Assembly (NCBI GenBank): GCA_013373085.1
Contig: JABXIM010000118.1
Span: 1 to 38,164, forward strand
Direction of reading: 5' to 3'
Source of the DNA: Oceanospirillaceae bacterium
GTDB taxonomy: Bacteria > Pseudomonadota > Gammaproteobacteria > Pseudomonadales > Balneatricaceae
Length of the DNA stretch: 38,164 bases
Part shown: positions 23,023 through 31,773 of the stretch, one piece after another
Layout: each line of letters starts with the position of its first letter
How positions within the stretch are numbered: position 1 is the first letter of the stretch
The notes under the pieces: generated by a model
Told to the model about the DNA's origin: nothing
Seen by the model: only the letters and a program-made list of their open reading frames with translations
Databases searched by the model: none
Translations under genes and position numbers: made by a program

Positions 23023-24000
23023 ATGGCAGATACCCCAAGCAAATCCGCAGTACGCGTCGAGCAGGGCGTGAAACTGCGAGGCGCCGAGAAAGTTGCCCGC
23101 ATTCCGGTCAAAGTTATCCCGACGGAAAAAGACGAGATGCCGCGCAAGCCCGAGTGGCTGCGGGTACGCATGGGTTCGTCGGCCGAGGTTAAGCGCATCA
23201 AGGACAAGCTGCGCAAGCACAAGCTTGCGTCGGTCTGCGAGGAAGCCAGCTGCCCGAACCTCGGCGAGTGCTTCAGCCACGGTACTGCGACTTTCATGAT
23301 CATGGGTGATATCTGCACCCGTCGCTGCCCCTTCTGCGACGTGGCTCACGGCCGCCCCAATGCGCTCAACCCGGACGAGCCGGTCGAACTGGCAACCGCT
23401 ATCGCCGACATGGGGCTGCGTTACGTGGTCATCACTTCCGTTGATCGCGACGACCTGCGTGATGGCGGTGCCCAGCACATTGCCGACTGCGTGCGCGAAA
23501 CCCGTGAACGTTCGTCGTCGATCCAGATCGAGACCCTGGTACCGGACTTCCGCGGCCGCATGGATATCGCGCTGGAAATCCTCGCCGCGACCCCGCCGGA
23601 CGTGTTCAACCATAACCTCGAAACCGTGCCGCGGCTGTACAAGCAGGTGCGTCCGGGCGCCGACTACGAGTGGTCGCTGGATTTGCTGGAAGGCTTCAAG
23701 GCACGCCAGCCGGACATCCGTACCAAGTCAGGCTTGATGGTTGGCGTTGGTGAAACCAACGAGGAGATCATCGAAGTGATGCGCGACCTGCGTGCGCACA
23801 ACGTCGACATGATCACTATTGGCCAGTACCTGCAGCCGAGCCGCAGCCACCTGCCGGTGGATCGCTTCGTGACGCCGGCTGAATTTGACGAGTTCGCCCG
23901 TCTCGCCAAGGAGATGGGCTTCAGCCACGTTGCCTCCGGTCCGCTGGTGCGCTCGTCCTATCATGCCGACCTCCAGGCCAAGGGCGAGAAGGTCGGCTGA
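23023..24000 (+). CDS. lipA: Lipoyl synthase
   Basis: Radical-SAM enzyme that inserts two sulfurs into protein-bound octanoyl chains. 325 residues. The auxiliary-cluster motif C-x4-C-x5-C is Cys72, Cys77 and Cys83 ([12 protein letters not shown]). The radical-SAM motif C-x3-C-x2-C is Cys98, Cys102 and Cys105 (CTRRCPFC). The C-terminal VRSSYHAD holds the serine ligand of the auxiliary cluster. It closes the long rightward cluster; a strong hairpin follows 20 bp after the stop. Confidence 0.98.
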
Positions 24001-24020
24001 AAACAGCACGCTATCGTTAC

Positions 24021-24050
24021 GTAAAAGGGAGCCTTCGGGCTCCCTTTTAC
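24021..24050 (+). terminator. Intrinsic terminator after lipA
   Basis: A perfect 13-bp stem, GTAAAAGGGAGCC (24021-24033) with GGCTCCCTTTTAC (24038-24050), closed by a TTCG tetraloop. The A-tract on one arm and T-tract on the other allow termination on both strands. Confidence 0.92.
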
Positions 24051-24051
24051 A

Positions 24052-24230
24052 TAGGTTGGGTGGAGCAGGCGTCCTGCCTGTGACATGGATCGTCAGCCGG
24101 GCTTTCGCGCTGCGTAATCCAACGGCGGTCTGCGGCCAAACGATCTGAACAGCGATCGATATGACGGGTCCGCGATGCCCGGGTTGCGAATTACAGCGTC
24201 GGGCCCGTGCCCATGCATCGCTTGACTCAT
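24052..24230 (-). repeat. Dispersed intergenic element A, copy A2 (inverted)
   Basis: Reading the minus strand, this copy opens with CAAGCGATGCATGGG and has the core at 24177-24136, including CATATCGATCGC and CAGATCG. It then runs through GTTGGATTACG and ends at CTCCACCCAACC. It follows copy A1 closely through CGGGCATCGCG, CATATCGATCGC and the ending. It lies directly behind the lipA terminator. It holds no gene. Confidence 0.7.
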
Positions 24231-24318
24231 TCTACACACTCAGCAGACCTCAGGGCCGTAAACCGTTGTAGCGTTACTACAGGAAATCACCGATGCCGGT
24301 TGCTGTCTGCGCGCTCGA

Positions 24319-24361
24319 CCGCCTCTGTAGCGGGGCTGCAGCCGCCCCGCTACAGAGGCGG
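24319..24361. repeat. Large perfect inverted repeat (REP-like hairpin)
   Basis: Eighteen bases at 24319-24336 are fully complementary to 24344-24361, with a seven-base loop. The arm includes CTGTAGCGGGGC. No T-run follows, so it is not a typical terminator. GC-rich palindromes of this kind are often REP sequences mobilised by RAYT transposases, but no second copy is seen in the window. Confidence 0.7.
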
Positions 24362-24389
24362 GGACGGAACCGCTCCGGCATCCTGAATA

Positions 24390-24403
24390 CTGATCCAGAT
24401 CAA
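24390..24403. promoter_or_regulatory. FNR/ANR-like site
   Basis: CTGATCCAGATCAA matches the TTGAT-N4-ATCAA consensus at nine of ten fixed positions. It lies about 350 bp before icd. A promoter using it would have to lie near 24436 (TTATAA), and the spacing is not ideal. Treat as a candidate only. Confidence 0.35.
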
Positions 24404-24489
24404 CGGAAATGACCATATATCGCTGCTCCTGGCCTTTATAAGGCTGGTGAATGTTAAATATAACAGCCATAAATGGCGTGTCTATCCGC

Positions 24490-24498
24490 TGTGGATAA
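24490..24498 (-). promoter_or_regulatory. DnaA-box match in the icd leader
   Basis: TGTGGATAA is the exact reverse complement of TTATCCACA, the strongest DnaA-box form. It is a single site, but it belongs with the cluster of such sites at 27379-30545. Confidence 0.45.
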
Positions 24499-24621
24499 AG
24501 TCTCTAAACGTAGGATTTTAGGGCCTTTCCCGGTTTTGTAGTCGAGCTTCAAAATAGCCAATTGGTCGCAAAGTGGGGCTAATTTGGTTCCGACTACTTA
24601 AGTCTTGGGGCCTAGTCGGCA

Positions 24622-24627
24622 TACAAT
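24622..24627 (+). promoter_or_regulatory. Possible -10 element of icd
   Basis: TACAAT within CATACAATAG. The same ten bases occur upstream of the ybeL-type gene (35141-35150). No clear -35 lies 16-18 bp upstream. It would give a leader of roughly 115 bases. Confidence 0.3.
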
Positions 24628-24751
24628 AGCCGCCGGAATATCGAATCCTTCGGCTCCGAATCGAAAGGACGACGACCACAAGTCGCCATCCATCGGGGCT
24701 GTTGGCAGTTTAGCCGCGCAAGACGGCGAGCCGTAAAACTCAGGGGGCACC

Positions 24752-26983
<2,232 letters not shown>

Positions 26984-27006
26984 ACGGTCAAACGTTTACC
27001 GAAAAT

Positions 27007-27042
27007 AAAAAGCCCGGGCTGCTTCGCAGTCCGGGCTTTTTT
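27007..27042 (+). terminator. Intrinsic terminator of icd
   Basis: GCCCGGGCTGC (27012-27022) pairs with GCAGTCCGGGC (27026-27036), with one G-T wobble and a TTC loop. It is flanked by an A-run upstream and TTTTTT (27037-27042). A textbook rho-independent terminator starting 23 bp after the stop. Confidence 0.95.
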
Positions 27043-27112
27043 GTTGCAAAGAATACGTTGTGAAGCGTAAGGCGTGAGGGGAGGCAATTGCGTCAATGGA
27101 ACTCCGTATCGG

Positions 27113-27262
27113 AGGGTGGGTGAAGCGATGCATCGCAGCGGATTAAAAACTTACCCGATAAGGTTCGTACATCGCGGGAACCCGCCATATCAATCGTGGT
27201 ACAGATCGATTGGTGTCGGTTGGCATAGTGCGATCCCTAAACCCTGGTTTTGGGTTCACTGC
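27113..27262 (+). repeat. Dispersed intergenic element A, copy A3
   Basis: Opens with GGGTGGGTGAAGCGATGCATCGC and has its core at 27170-27213 (CATCGCGGGAACC, CCATATCAATCG, TACAGATCGATTGG), then GTTGGCATAGTGCG. It is closest to copy A4, sharing CATCGCGGGA and GTTGGCATxGTGCG. The 613-bp gap 26984-27596 holds this copy, the icd terminator, a short hairpin and element B1; no gene is supported there. Confidence 0.72.
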
Positions 27263-27283
27263 CATTTGCTCTTGCAATGGCAG
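27259..27283. other. Short hairpin after element A3
   Basis: CTGCCATTTGC and GCAATGGCAG pair around a TCTT loop with one bulged T. TATTTCG follows. It may be a weak terminator for either strand or the end structure of the repeat. Confidence 0.35.
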
Positions 27284-27364
27284 TATTTCGACCGTCCCTG
27301 GCGGTTGCGGTCCTGACCCCTTGCCCCCATCCTCGCATAGCTCACAGCAGACCTGCTCGATACC

Positions 27365-27595
27365 TTCTCCCCACTTTCTGTGGAAAACCGTCTGAATAAC
27401 TTATGGGTACTTGTCCCCAGGCCTCCAGCTACGGCATCGAAGTCGAGTTGAACACGAATTAAACGGAAAAAATCCCCTTTTTTCAGGCTATTGAAGAAGT
27501 CAAGCAGCGGTGGATAAGTTGCTTTTGGTTGCTGAATGTCAAGCGGTCTGCGGGAGTTATTCTGCCTGTGGAGAGTCGGTTTTCCACATAGATGC
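27365..27595 (+). repeat. Element B, copy B1, with DnaA-box-like sites
   Basis: About 230 bp that match copy B2 (30296-30525) in the same order. Shared segments include TCTGTGGAAAAC, CTGAATAACTT, TTGTCCCCAGGC, ATTGAAGAAGTCAAGC, GTGGATAAGTTG and TTTTCCACA. Two sites fit TTWTNCACA exactly (27379-27387 on the minus strand, 27580-27588 on the plus strand), and GGTGGATAA (27509-27517) is one base off. It ends two bases before the stop codon of the leftward transglycosylase gene. Confidence 0.75.
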
Positions 27596-27596
27596 T

Positions 27597-29408
27597 TTAC
27601 GCACTACCAGGCGCGCCATAGCAGGCCTTTACCGCTTCCGGGCCCTGGGATGCCATTGCCTGGTATTTCTTCCAGAACTCCGCATCGATTGCCCTCAGGC
27701 GCTTCGATGTGCTGTCCTTGCGATAGCGGCTGAGATGGCCCGGCCCACCGTTGTAGACGGCGTATGCTGCACGGGCGAGATTGCGCGGATCGCCGGTGGT
27801 TTCGTGTTCCCGGCGCTTGATGGCGAAATCGACCAGGTAGTGGACCAGGATTTCGCTGCCGGCTCGGGCGTTATAGCCGATGTCGCGGGTTAGCGCATCG
27901 ATGTTATAGACACCGCGCCAGACGTGACGGTTGATCTGCATCAGGCCGAGGGCGCCGCCGGTGGACTGGATAGTCTTCACCTGGCCGCCGGCTATGACGA
28001 ACTGTCGCCAGCAGCTTTCCTGCCAGGCCGTTGTACGCAGCGTATTGGCGTAGATGTTGAAAAAGGCCACCGGCACCTTGTCTTTTTGCCGCTCCGCCGA
28101 GATCACCTGGTCGAGCAGCAGCGCGAGGGTTTTCAGATAAGCATCAAGGTCCGTTGTCGTCGGTACCCAGCCGGTCAGCTCCGTCACCAGCACAGGATCG
28201 ATCTGCCCCGCATGGGCAGTTGGGATCAGCCAGGCAAAAGGGGAGAGCGGATCCTCCGGTTCTTCGCTCAGTTCAGGCTCCAGTCCCAGCAGGGTGCGCA
28301 GGGCCGGATCAACCTCAGTCCCGTAGTCGAGGCTGTCGTCGCTGACGCCGGGCACCAGCAGTCGGGCCAGGCTGCGCAGGCTGTTGCGGTTCAGTTGCAG
28401 GCCCAGGTGCGGTGCAGCGCGATCGAGCGCCTGCAAGGCGTCCGCGGCGCCGATAAAGGTGGCGTATTGCAACGCGTCGCCACCGGGAATGTTCAAGCGG
28501 CTATCGTGCAGCAGCGGCGCTAGCCGATCCCAGGTTTTAAGGAACAGGTCGCGGACCGGATCCCGGCTGCGGTCTCCTTCAGCCAGGGCATCGCGCAGGT
28601 CGTAGCGAGCGTCGAGCAGAATATCGGCCAGCGCCTCCGCCAGCTCCGGCTCGGAGGCGCTGGCGATGGTCTTGATCAGCCAGGTGGCGAAGCCATCCCA
28701 GGCTTGCCAGGCGGTATCCCAGCGGGCCAGTTCATCGTCGGACAGCGGTGCCACGTCGGGTGGGAACAGGTCGGGTACAGGCTCCGGCGTCTCTAGCTTC
28801 AGCTCGACCCTGAGCCCCGCTGGCGTGGCGCTGACGTCGCTCAAGGCGATGGCGACAGGCGCTTTGCCGGGATGCGCCGTGATCTCCATCAGTCGTTGCA
28901 ACCCATCCAGGGCCGGGGATAGCTCGATGCGGATGGCATTGAAACGGGGATGAACCGCGTCCTTGATCCAGCTCCATACGATGCCGGGCAGAGCGCGGGT
29001 CTGCTGATCTGTTTTGAGAATGTCCGAGTCGATGACCCGGAAATCCAGGGTGCTGCCATTGGCGTCGAGATAGGCTTCCAGACGGGTGTCGAGCACGCCC
29101 TGCCACTGAAGCGGGAACAGGCAGCGATCCGATGCCGGCGAGCCGACGCGGGTGTCGATGTCGCTGAGGATACGGATGTGCCCATCATCGCCGCTGTCGA
29201 TGCGCGGGTTGATCAGTTGCAGGCTGTTGCAGCCGCTGGCGTCGGAATAGAGCGCTGCGACCTGTTGTGGGCCCTGGAATAGCTGTTCGGCGAGCGCCTT
29301 GTCGAGAATACGATAGTCGAGGGTAAGCGGGATCCTCAGCACCTCCGCATGGGCTTGGAGGGGCAACAGTATCCAAAGTAATAGCGCGACCCACAACGCC
29401 GCAGGCAT
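27597..29408 (-). CDS. Exported protein with C-terminal SLT lytic transglycosylase domain
   Basis: 603 residues. Residues 1-21 form a signal peptide ending LQAHA. Residues about 22-440 match no family I recognise; two cysteines (60, 96) could pair in the periplasm. Residues about 450-590 are a transglycosylase domain of the Slt/MltE fold: AWQESCWR with catalytic Glu464, GGALGLMQIN (484-493) and VYNGGPGHLSRY (551-562). It would cleave glycan strands in the periplasm. The frame extends to ATG 29435, but ATG 29408 gives a clean signal peptide and has AGAGGA at proper distance. It lies downstream of the glyoxalase-fold gene on the same strand, and the pair is bracketed by A+B repeats. Confidence 0.85.
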   Translation of the reverse strand: MPAALWVALLLWILLPLQAHAEVLRIPLTLDYRILDKALAEQLFQGPQQVAALYSDASGCNSLQLINPRIDSGDDGHIRILSDIDTRVGSPASDRCLFPLQWQGVLDTRLEAYLDANGSTLDFRVIDSDILKTDQQTRALPGIVWSWIKDAVHPRFNAIRIELSPALDGLQRLMEITAHPGKAPVAIALSDVSATPAGLRVELKLETPEPVPDLFPPDVAPLSDDELARWDTAWQAWDGFATWLIKTIASASEPELAEALADILLDARYDLRDALAEGDRSRDPVRDLFLKTWDRLAPLLHDSRLNIPGGDALQYATFIGAADALQALDRAAPHLGLQLNRNSLRSLARLLVPGVSDDSLDYGTEVDPALRTLLGLEPELSEEPEDPLSPFAWLIPTAHAGQIDPVLVTELTGWVPTTTDLDAYLKTLALLLDQVISAERQKDKVPVAFFNIYANTLRTTAWQESCWRQFVIAGGQVKTIQSTGGALGLMQINRHVWRGVYNIDALTRDIGYNARAGSEILVHYLVDFAIKRREHETTGDPRNLARAAYAVYNGGPGHLSRYRKDSTSKRLRAIDAEFWKKYQAMASQGPEAVKACYGAPGSA

Positions 29409-29534
29409 GACCGGATCCTCTTTCCACAGATCCATTTACGGAGCTTGCATCTTACACCCAGTTGGCGCGTTCCGGATGGGGGGAGACTCGAAAATACTGG
29501 GTCCGGTCTTGAACAGCCTGTTAAGGAGAAAAGG

Positions 29535-29975
29535 TCAGCCGCCGCGGTTCAATTTGGCGAAATCCTCGGCGCCCGGTCCCAGTGGCTGGCCGTAACTGAA
29601 CTCGACGTAGTTGCCGTTGGGATCGCGCATGCCGCAGTAGTAACCCACCGGGAAGGGTTCGTCCCGCGGCGCCCAGACCAGGCAGCCGGCTTCCGCGGCC
29701 CGCTCGGCGATCCGGTCCACCGCTTCGCGGCTTTCGAGCGCGAAACCGAAATGACGGTAGTCGTTGTCCGGCAGATCGAGGTCCCGGCCACCATTCATCA
29801 GCACGAAAATGAAGTCGGTCTCGCGGCCGGGTTCAGCCATCCAGGCGATAGTCTGGTGTTCGGTATGACGCTCGTGGATCACCTCCATACCGCAGAAATC
29901 GCGGTAGAAAGTGATACAGGCATCGATATCGCGGACATGCAGTGCGATATGGGTGATTCTGGGTGTGACGGGCAT
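29535..29975 (-). CDS. VOC (glyoxalase/dioxygenase fold) protein
   Basis: A 146-residue vicinal-oxygen-chelate protein with two beta-alpha-beta-beta-beta modules. Likely metal ligands are His in THIALHV near the start, His in YRHFGFALES mid-protein and Glu in NYVEFSYG near the end. RDPNGNYVEF is the usual second-module signature. Length and motifs resemble lactoylglutathione lyase (GloA, about 135 residues), but substrate cannot be assigned; VOC proteins also include dioxygenases and resistance proteins. GGGAGTTCACC, on the minus strand, precedes the ATG. It probably shares a transcript with the transglycosylase 126 bp downstream. Confidence 0.85.
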   Translation of the reverse strand: MPVTPRITHIALHVRDIDACITFYRDFCGMEVIHERHTEHQTIAWMAEPGRETDFIFVLMNGGRDLDLPDNDYRHFGFALESREAVDRIAERAAEAGCLVWAPRDEPFPVGYYCGMRDPNGNYVEFSYGQPLGPGAEDFAKLNRGG

Positions 29976-30069
29976 GGTGAACTCCCGGATAAGGTATCTG
30001 TATTAAAGCTAGAGGAGAAAGTGGAATGGGGAAAGGCGAGGGGGCCGGAGGCCCCAACCGAGTCCACGA

Positions 30070-30290
30070 CCGGGTGGGTGCAACGATGCATCCCAGTTAA
30101 TTTGACCGGTTTGCTCGTCGTACCGGCATCGCGGGACCGCCATGGACGGCGGAAGTCCTGAAAACGCAGGAGCAGTTTTTCTGGGAAGCCGCCAAAGCGA
30201 TCGCAGTACAGATCGATTGGTTTCAGTTGGCATCGTGCGGTTTCGGTCCCCACTAGTGTTGGGTTACGTGGCTCCGCCTACCTTGGCAGT
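30070..30290 (+). repeat. Dispersed intergenic element A, copy A4, with internal insertion
   Basis: Opens with GGGTGGGTGCAACGATGCATCCC. The core begins at 30127 (CATCGCGGGACCGCCAT), is interrupted by about 50 bases (roughly 30144-30195, edged by GGCGG and CCGCC), and resumes with GCGATCGCAGTACAGATCGATTGG up to 30220, then GTTGGCATCGTGCGG and GTTGGGTTACG. The 769-bp gap 29976-30744 holds this copy, element B2, a further DnaA-box match and about 150 bp in which I see nothing. Confidence 0.72.
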
Positions 30291-30295
30291 TCAAG

Positions 30296-30525
30296 CTTTT
30301 CCCCAATGTCTGTGGAAAACGACCTGAATAACTTCTGGGTATTTGTCCCCAGGCAGCTAATGGCGGTGCCAACGCCGTCTGCACACAGTTTGATCGGTAA
30401 AATACACGTATTTTCAGGTGATTGAAGAAGTCAAGCGGCAGTGGATAAGTTGAACTGAAGGGACGAAAGTCAAGCCTGGAGGCTGTTTTTTGTCGGCTGT
30501 GGAAAATGGCTTTTCCACAAAATGC
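30296..30525 (+). repeat. Element B, copy B2, with DnaA-box-like sites
   Basis: Second copy of element B. Sites that fit TTWTNCACA exactly lie at 30311-30319 and 30498-30506 (minus strand) and 30511-30519 (plus strand). AGTGGATAA (30440-30448) is one base off. The middle third (about 30355-30410) has diverged from B1, while both ends are well kept. Confidence 0.75.
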
Positions 30526-30536
30526 CGGAGTAAGTC

Positions 30537-30545
30537 TGTGGATAA
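30537..30545 (-). promoter_or_regulatory. DnaA-box match next to element B2
   Basis: TGTGGATAA, the exact complement of TTATCCACA, lies 12 bp beyond the end of B2. With the three matches inside B2 this makes four consensus sites in 235 bp. Confidence 0.5.
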
Positions 30546-30744
30546 CAATGGGGTAAAATCCACAGACTCCATCATTACAGCGTTGTGACCGAGCGGTTAA
30601 ACAATGTACAGCTGCCGGCTGCGGCGGCAACGCCTCCGGGCGTCAGACCCGAGCAGGCTGAGGATGTGCCGGGATGGTCGGTTGGTGAGCGGGTATGAAT
30701 TGCGTTCGCGGCAGCAGCGGGCTGTTCGTCAGCGGACTGAGGTA

Positions 30745-31773
30745 TCAGACGAGCGATACCAGCGGCAGCGGGTGGCCGGAGAGATGCAGCACGATGCCGG
30801 TCAGCGGTACCCAGGGATCGCCGGCGCTGGCGCCCTTGATCATGCGGTCCACTTCGGCGCATTCCTGCAGCAGGCCTTCGAGGGCCGCAGGGGAGATGCG
30901 TTTGGCGCAGCCCCGTACCAACTGTTTGCGCTTGCCGAATATACGCTGTTGCTGGCACAGGTTGTCGAACGGCAACCCCTTGTTGAGGCCCGCCTGCACC
31001 GCATGCAGGGTACGGATTTCCCGGGCAAGAGCCCAGAGCAGTACCGCCGCTTCGGTGCCTTCCTGACGCAATACCTGGATGATGCGGGTACAACGCTGCG
31101 GCTGACCGCCGAGGGCTGCATCGGTGAGGCCGAAGATGTCGAAACGAGAACTGTCGGAAACGGCGTCCGTTACGTCTTCGGCGCTGAGGGTTTTGCCCGG
31201 ATAGAGCAGCTGCAGCTTGCTCATCTCCTGACGTGCCGCCAGCAGATTGCCCTCTATGCGCTCGGCGAGCAGCTCCACGGCGCTGTCGTCGAGGCGCAGG
31301 TCCATGGCCGCGGCGCGCTGCTTGATCCAGCCAGGCAGCTGCGGCGGTTCCACCGGCCAGATCTCGACGATGACACCGGTCTTGTCGAGCGCCTTGAACC
31401 AGGCGCTCTTCTTGGCCGAGCCATCGAGCTTGTCGGCAATGATCAGCAGGACGTTGTCCGGGGCGGGATTGGCAAGGTATTGCTGCAGGATATCGCTGGC
31501 GTTCTTCTGCAGCTTCTGGCTGCCGAGACGCAGTTCGATGATCTTGCGTTCGGCGAACAGCGACAGTGCGCTGGCGCATTCGAGCAGGTATTCCCACTTG
31601 AAGCCGCCATCGACGTGCAGCACTTCCCGTTCGGTGAAACCCTGCTCCTGGAAGGCCTTGCGCAGTGTATCGACGCTTTCCTCGCACAGCAGCGGTTCAT
31701 CGCCGGTCACCAGGTAGGCGGGGGCGATGCCCTGCTTGAGACGTCCGGCCAGTTGTTCCGGCTTGAGTTTCAT
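30745..31773 (-). CDS. holA: DNA polymerase III subunit delta
   Basis: Delta subunit of the clamp loader, which opens the beta ring. 342 residues; E. coli HolA has 343. The N-terminus MKLKPEQLAGRL and the YLVTGDEPLLCEES segment are typical, followed by the RecA-like domain (ERKIIELRL, PDNVLLIIADKLD), a GNLLAARQEMSKLQLLYPG helix-rich part and the C-terminal collar domain (LLWALAREIRTL). It is the last gene of leftward leuS-lptE-holA; lptE ends 70 bp upstream. No obvious terminator follows. Confidence 0.95.
   Translation of the reverse strand: MKLKPEQLAGRLKQGIAPAYLVTGDEPLLCEESVDTLRKAFQEQGFTEREVLHVDGGFKWEYLLECASALSLFAERKIIELRLGSQKLQKNASDILQQYLANPAPDNVLLIIADKLDGSAKKSAWFKALDKTGVIVEIWPVEPPQLPGWIKQRAAAMDLRLDDSAVELLAERIEGNLLAARQEMSKLQLLYPGKTLSAEDVTDAVSDSSRFDIFGLTDAALGGQPQRCTRIIQVLRQEGTEAAVLLWALAREIRTLHAVQAGLNKGLPFDNLCQQQRIFGKRKQLVRGCAKRISPAALEGLLQECAEVDRMIKGASAGDPWVPLTGIVLHLSGHPLPLVSLV

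Follow-up and report, generated by a model that had tools for sequence, protein, structure and literature searches.

Paralogous DnaA-box clusters near holA in a Marinobacterium-like bacterium, probable DnaA-reactivating sequences of the DARS2 type

The window and its two DnaA-box clusters

The DNA analysed here (the window) is the entire contig JABXIM010000118.1 (38,164 nucleotides; G000:C106) of the assembly GCA_013373085.1, a genome of 5.78 Mb in 249 contigs. The source organism is a Marinobacterium-like sea bacterium; its nearest named relative according to HolA is Marinobacterium nitratireducens (91% identity; L070, among the 80 best of 234 holA loci). The window contains two clusters of DnaA boxes, at 27.4 and 30.3 kb, that are probably two copies of a DnaA-reactivating sequence (DARS) similar to DARS2 of Escherichia coli. 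Both are non-coding and intergenic. The 30.3-kb cluster (holA-side copy) is located between the 3' end of holA and a glyoxalase/VOC-family gene, upstream of the latter. The transglycosylase gene beside the 27.4-kb cluster (second copy) was recognized by an SLT domain (25.4 bits for a cut-off of 21.3).

A preliminary description of the window had listed seven exact matches to the DnaA-box consensus TTWTNCACA, four of them within 235 bp beside holA. All seven are present where they had been placed, including the group of four (30311-30545), and an eighth was found at 26920 (- strand) inside the isocitrate dehydrogenase gene (idh). These eight sites compare with 0.56 expected (sd 0.67), a number reached by none of 100 shuffled windows. 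The whole genome contains 191 sites, about one per 30 kb (120 for the reversed pattern; positions are given for the first 100 of the 191), so that the local density is not that of most intergenic regions. The box at 24490, for which no exact counterpart was found in the related genome G002, was left out of the element.

The comparison of the two clusters reveals three direct repeats (27364-27422, 27449-27521 and 27566-27588 against 30296-30354, 30380-30452 and 30497-30519) with a constant offset of 2931-2932. Since these repeats are collinear, the clusters represent a duplicated block of about 225 bp whose copies have diverged. This duplication, and the near-consensus boxes that complete a DARS-type core in each copy, had escaped the preliminary description, whose overall interpretation is supported in part. 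The features of the locus are compiled in Table 1.

Table 1. Features of the two element copies and of their surroundings in the window.
Feature	Positions	Strand	Remarks
DARS2-type element, holA-side copy (putative)	30296..30545	+	VOC-holA intergenic; core and box layout; ortholog in 7/7 genus genomes
Box I, TTTTCCCCA	30297..30305	+	1 mismatch; TTATCCCCG in 5 relatives
Box II, TTTTCCACA	30311..30319	-	exact consensus
Box III, TTATTCAGG	30323..30331	-	weak; exact consensus in 5 relatives
IHF-type site, TTTCAGGTGATTG	30412..30424	+	1 mismatch to WATCARNNNNTTR; +115 from core start
Near-consensus box, TTATCCACT	30440..30448	-	similar box in G002, none in the other 5 genus members
Exact box	30498..30506	-	left arm of a 22-bp palindrome
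Exact box	30511..30519	+	+214; position 1 of second degenerate triplet
Degenerate middle position of second triplet, CCGGAGTAA	30525..30533	-	GGGGTA in the other 6/7
Exact box, TTATCCACA	30537..30545	-	position 3 of second triplet
DARS2-type element, second copy (putative)	27364..27588	+	between convergent idh and transglycosylase genes; collinear with 30296-30519, offset 2931-2932; also in G002
Second-copy box I, TTCTCCCCA	27365..27373	+	weak
Second-copy box II, TTTTCCACA	27379..27387	-	exact
Second-copy box III, TTATTCAGA	27391..27399	-	1 mismatch
Second-copy IHF-type site, TTTCAGGCTATTG	27481..27493	+	1 mismatch; +116
Second-copy near-consensus box, TTATCCACC	27509..27517	-	
Second-copy exact box, TTTTCCACA	27580..27588	+	+215
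Dispersed-repeat pieces beside second copy	27114..27232	+	
Dispersed-repeat pieces beside holA-side copy	30072..30239	+	same repeat as 27114..27232
holA (DNA polymerase III delta), anchor gene	30745..31773	-	TIGR01128, 298 bits
Glyoxalase/VOC-family gene, other flank of holA-side copy	29535..29975	-	PF00903

A three-box core and an IHF-type site in each copy

In both copies, box I on the + strand is followed 14 bp on by box II and 12 bp further by box III, both on the - strand. This arrangement was converted into a model of 24 positions (three boxes at fixed spacing) scored by the number of mismatches, and stretches of E. coli DNA which we take to hold DARS1, DARS2 and datA were scanned with it. 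The cores of DARS1 and DARS2 display the identical layout, with 2 and 3 mismatches respectively, whereas datA contains no three-box core (best score of 6). The DARS2 core coincides with the segment that the deletion primers of PMC4585315 enclose. The window gives exactly two hits with at most 3 mismatches and none of 300 shuffled windows gives any (their best score, 5, was obtained once); in 800 kb of DNA from the relative G005 no core scores below 6 mismatches and one scores 6. Seven genomes of the genus, including that of the window, were compared. Both copies of G002 score 3 and the other five members score 2. A second, degenerate triplet begins at +214 of the holA-side copy (4 mismatches; offsets are counted from the core start).

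Matches to the IHF consensus WATCARNNNNTTR were scored, as sequence matches only, at 510 combinations of offset and strand in nine element copies (seven holA-side and two second copies). The best of these places is +115/+116 on the + strand, which is occupied in all nine copies, eight with 1 mismatch and one with 2. The latter is the holA-side ortholog of G002. In E. coli DARS2, matches with 1 mismatch are found at +93 (- strand) and +109 (+ strand), 3 bp apart, and the same 3-bp spacing of the sites IBS1-2 is described in PMC4245941. A second core-like triplet lies to the right in the E. coli stretch (L151 952-1083; 5 mismatches, 316 bp after the DARS2 core) and has an exact IHF-consensus match at +119.

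A match to the Fis consensus, which is loose, is found at 30381 (+84); it is exact in four of the nine copies and has 1 mismatch in the other five. In DARS2, the Fis sites FBS2-3 adjoin those for IHF.

Conservation, duplication and distribution

The VOC-holA gap of all seven genus genomes keeps the core, the IHF-type site and the + strand box at +214/+215. Averaged over five boxes (without the degenerate middle box of the second triplet), the commonest base has a frequency of 0.917, compared with 0.740 elsewhere, and none of 20,000 random sets of five 9-mers reached this value. Box II varies only at positions 3 and 5, which are those left open by the consensus.

The second copy is present only in G000 (the genome of the window) and G002. 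The two second copies are 72% identical to each other and 66% and 61% identical to the partners in their own genomes; because they are mutually closer, the duplication probably predates the split of G000 and G002. The dispersed repeat beside both copies (best matches to 30126-30232) occurs at tens of places in the genome, among them L002-L020 (48 matches to the query including those of the window; 40 of 121 candidates scored), and may have aided the duplication of the block.

The core was searched in genomes of the family and of the order, with the reversed pattern as control. In 116 family genomes, at most 2 mismatches being allowed, there are 331 matches against 31 for the control, in 112 genomes against 28, with four to six in each of the seven genus members; the positions listed cover part of these matches. 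Other DnaA sites, among them origins, may account for some of these. With at most 1 mismatch, 80 of 145 genomes of the order contain a match and the control yielded a single one.

The distance between core and IHF-type site was evaluated in 45 distinct family cores (out of the 331 matches) and in 29 of 30 order loci, one of which comes from the genome of the window; orthologs among these cores are not independent. In the family, 21 of the 45 cores carry a + strand match in +105..+130; these 26 of 740 positions collect 21 of 59 + strand matches and 1 of 41 on the - strand. In the order, 19 of the 29 loci have a + strand match, at +116..+123, and the same 26 positions hold 21 of 55 + strand matches and 1 of 33 on the - strand. 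The nrdB-side cores, with which the block has no BLAST match, have a + strand IHF match at +120/+121 in three of four cases.

Related cores adjoin unrelated genes (lexA, dUTPase, SAICAR synthetase, gpsA, cation efflux, metA and nrdB). Among 20 proteins encoded beside cores at 15 of these 29 loci of the order (two without Pfam match), neither dnaA nor mnmG nor another origin-linked gene was detected. Downstream of the best 80 of 234 holA loci, exact boxes number 33 in 78.4 kb (reversed pattern 4); the remaining 371 kb contain 25 (reversed 15). Within 1 kb, at least two boxes are found at nine of these loci and one box at six (for three of the 80, the downstream DNA is shorter than 1 kb). A family-wide element linked to holA was rejected on this count of nine, and the location beside holA is restricted to the genus and to a few neighbours in which holA is likewise accompanied by a core (L078, L080 and L088).

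The nrdB-side cores form a pair, 0.66 kb apart in the genome of the window (L234 6616 and 7277) and 1.5 kb apart in G001 (L230 5410 and 6942). A further core with 2 mismatches is located upstream of metA (L233 5757, G000:C173); G001 has a core resembling it (L231 5967), possibly at the same locus. In one member of the order, a DARS-type core is flanked by lexA and a pyruvate kinase gene (L254 1636-2313). Another cluster of the genome, five exact boxes in two halves that appear repeated by eye, lies beside an MsnO8-family oxidoreductase gene (L193 2230-2984; G000:C94:35729-36483), with a best core score of only 6 mismatches. The fifth pattern match of the genome (C96:20862) looks like a chance palindrome and was not counted as DARS.

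Interpretation and alternative explanations

We consider it probable that the clusters at 27.4 and 30.3 kb are both DARS of the DARS2 type and paralogs of each other. The sequence supports this assignment well: the boxes are laid out and spaced as in DARS2, an IHF-type site follows them, and the element is conserved, duplicated and remote from oriC. Binding of DnaA and IHF, ADP release and an effect on initiation and its timing are inferred. The preliminary description had proposed a locus like datA or DARS; the second term agrees with the conserved core, its spacing and the DARS2-like IHF position, whereas the first does not agree with the score of datA. By analogy with E. coli, ADP-DnaA would bind boxes I to III, and the molecules facing each other head to head on boxes I and II would lose their ADP. 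An IHF bend about 80 bp beyond the boxes would shape or activate the complex, and the released apo-DnaA would take up ATP and become competent to start replication at oriC. For E. coli, PMC8682772 gives this model of boxes I and II, IHF activation and ADP release. Genes for DnaA, Hda, Fis and IHF-alpha, all scoring higher than the curated cut-offs, are present in the genome of the window, and the second copy would raise the dose of such a site.

With less assurance, we favour the wider proposal that DARS2 is not bound to a single syntenic position. A module composed of the core and a single IHF site near +115 to +123 would be distributed over the Pseudomonadales at non-syntenic positions, several to a chromosome, and four or five DARS, one of them doubled near holA, would tune DnaA recharging in these bacteria.

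Several observations weigh against the DARS2 assignment. Box I is below consensus in every holA-side copy, with C for A at position 7 (7/7), and the window has a weak box III. A counterpart of the Fis match of DARS2 (+145 in E. coli) is found only in the holA-side copy of the window (30441, +144, with 1 mismatch to a loose consensus). An IHF match is lacking at the expected place in 24 of the 45 family cores and 10 of the 29 order cores. No core with at most 1 mismatch exists in 65 of the 145 order genomes, and 65 of the 80 named holA loci have no exact box within 1 kb downstream. DARS2 is near mutH, unlike the element beside holA and the VOC gene; the place near mutH is described for DARS2 homologues and is no requirement for activity.

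The foremost alternative, which we regard as improbable, is a passive cluster that titrates DnaA on its boxes and thereby postpones initiation, no nucleotide exchange being involved. It would be served by four exact boxes in 235 bp and by a position about 21% along one replichore, as read in G005. However, titration needs neither the fixed 14/12 spacing nor the opposed orientation nor an IHF site at a set distance, which are exactly what is conserved, and E. coli datA lacks the core.

DnaA can also regulate transcription, and the VOC gene has the holA-side copy upstream of it. That the element controls one of its neighbours is nevertheless very unlikely, since the second copy is located between the 3' ends of two convergent genes, related cores have unrelated neighbours and no sigma-70-like promoter was detected in 26980-30745 (shuffled sequences give 1.4; the scan covers the sigma-70 type only). 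The promoter and terminator scan gave 8 terminator-like sites for 2.9 expected.

Still less probable is the view that the block is a structured RNA or a mobile repeat rich in boxes. The duplication of the block, the dispersed repeat beside both copies and two-sided changes in 10 of 59 predicted pairs are in its favour. Nevertheless, the overall RNAalifold covariation term is close to zero (+0.05), no Rfam match at gathering score was found in 24000-31000 and none falls within either block, and the block itself has two copies in the genome against tens for its dispersed neighbour.

The window element is not oriC, as it is neither at the GC-skew switch nor beside dnaA or mnmG. The preliminary description had noted the absence of origin-neighbouring genes, and dnaA and mnmG (gidA) are indeed on another contig (C153). 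The mnmE-mnmG gap, with four exact boxes, is the likely oriC; it uses mainly TTATGCACA boxes (L040 11168-11750), unlike the TTTTCCACA of the window element. A further exact box is located just upstream of dnaA. The distance from dnaA was read in three relatives, where holA and dnaA are separated by 522 kb (G002), 549 kb (G005) and 619 kb (G001). In G005, the GC skew (40 sampled stretches) turns between 3.585 and 3.64 Mb, with dnaA at 3.594 Mb, and keeps one sign on both sides of holA at 3.046 Mb. Although clustered DnaA boxes and an IHF site also occur in oriC, a second active origin or the copy of origin DNA previously suggested is scarcely credible given this skew and the comparison of the block with the dnaA/mnmG loci of G000 and G005, in which nothing beyond matches of 13 and 16 bp (E 0.38) was obtained. 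A phage origin was also rejected, no match being found in phage records ("near" mode search).

Comparison with known systems

The window element and E. coli datA have in common clustered DnaA boxes and an IHF site (one was found in the datA stretch); they differ by the three-box core, which is the arrangement scored here. DARS1 shares the core and its spacing, and differs by having no IHF match with at most 1 mismatch in the stretch scanned. The resemblance to DARS2 is wider. Beyond the common core, both have a + strand IHF-type site (+115/+116 in the window, +109 in DARS2) and a further + strand box (+214/+215 and +211), and both are intergenic and away from oriC. Unlike DARS2 with its two IHF sites, the window element has a single one; it also differs by its duplication 2.9 kb apart, by the C in box I and by its uncertain Fis sites.

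According to earlier work, DARS2 homologues exist in relatives of E. coli, Vibrio and Shewanella being named (PMC8682772), they occupy a similar genomic position in species related to E. coli (PMC4245941), and DARS-like sequences are conserved in many proteobacteria (PMC10380432). The kind of element is known from these descriptions. As in the homologues of Vibrio, Shewanella and enterobacteria, the core is conserved outside E. coli; unlike them, the present elements belong to relatives on the Pseudomonadales side, occupy other positions and include several cores per genome. No survey of DARS in Pseudomonadales appears among the literature matches listed (titles and beginnings of abstracts, subscription journals being mostly outside). 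As far as these listings show, what is new is the occurrence of DARS2-type elements in Pseudomonadales at other positions and more than once in a genome, with a tight distance between core and IHF site and with one element doubled. DnaA recharging outside the E. coli lineage is little tested in the literature searched. If the elements are DARS, it could be read from sequence across a large order how many recharging sites there are, with what spacing and at what chromosomal distance, and the natural duplication in two of seven genus members would represent a ready dose experiment.

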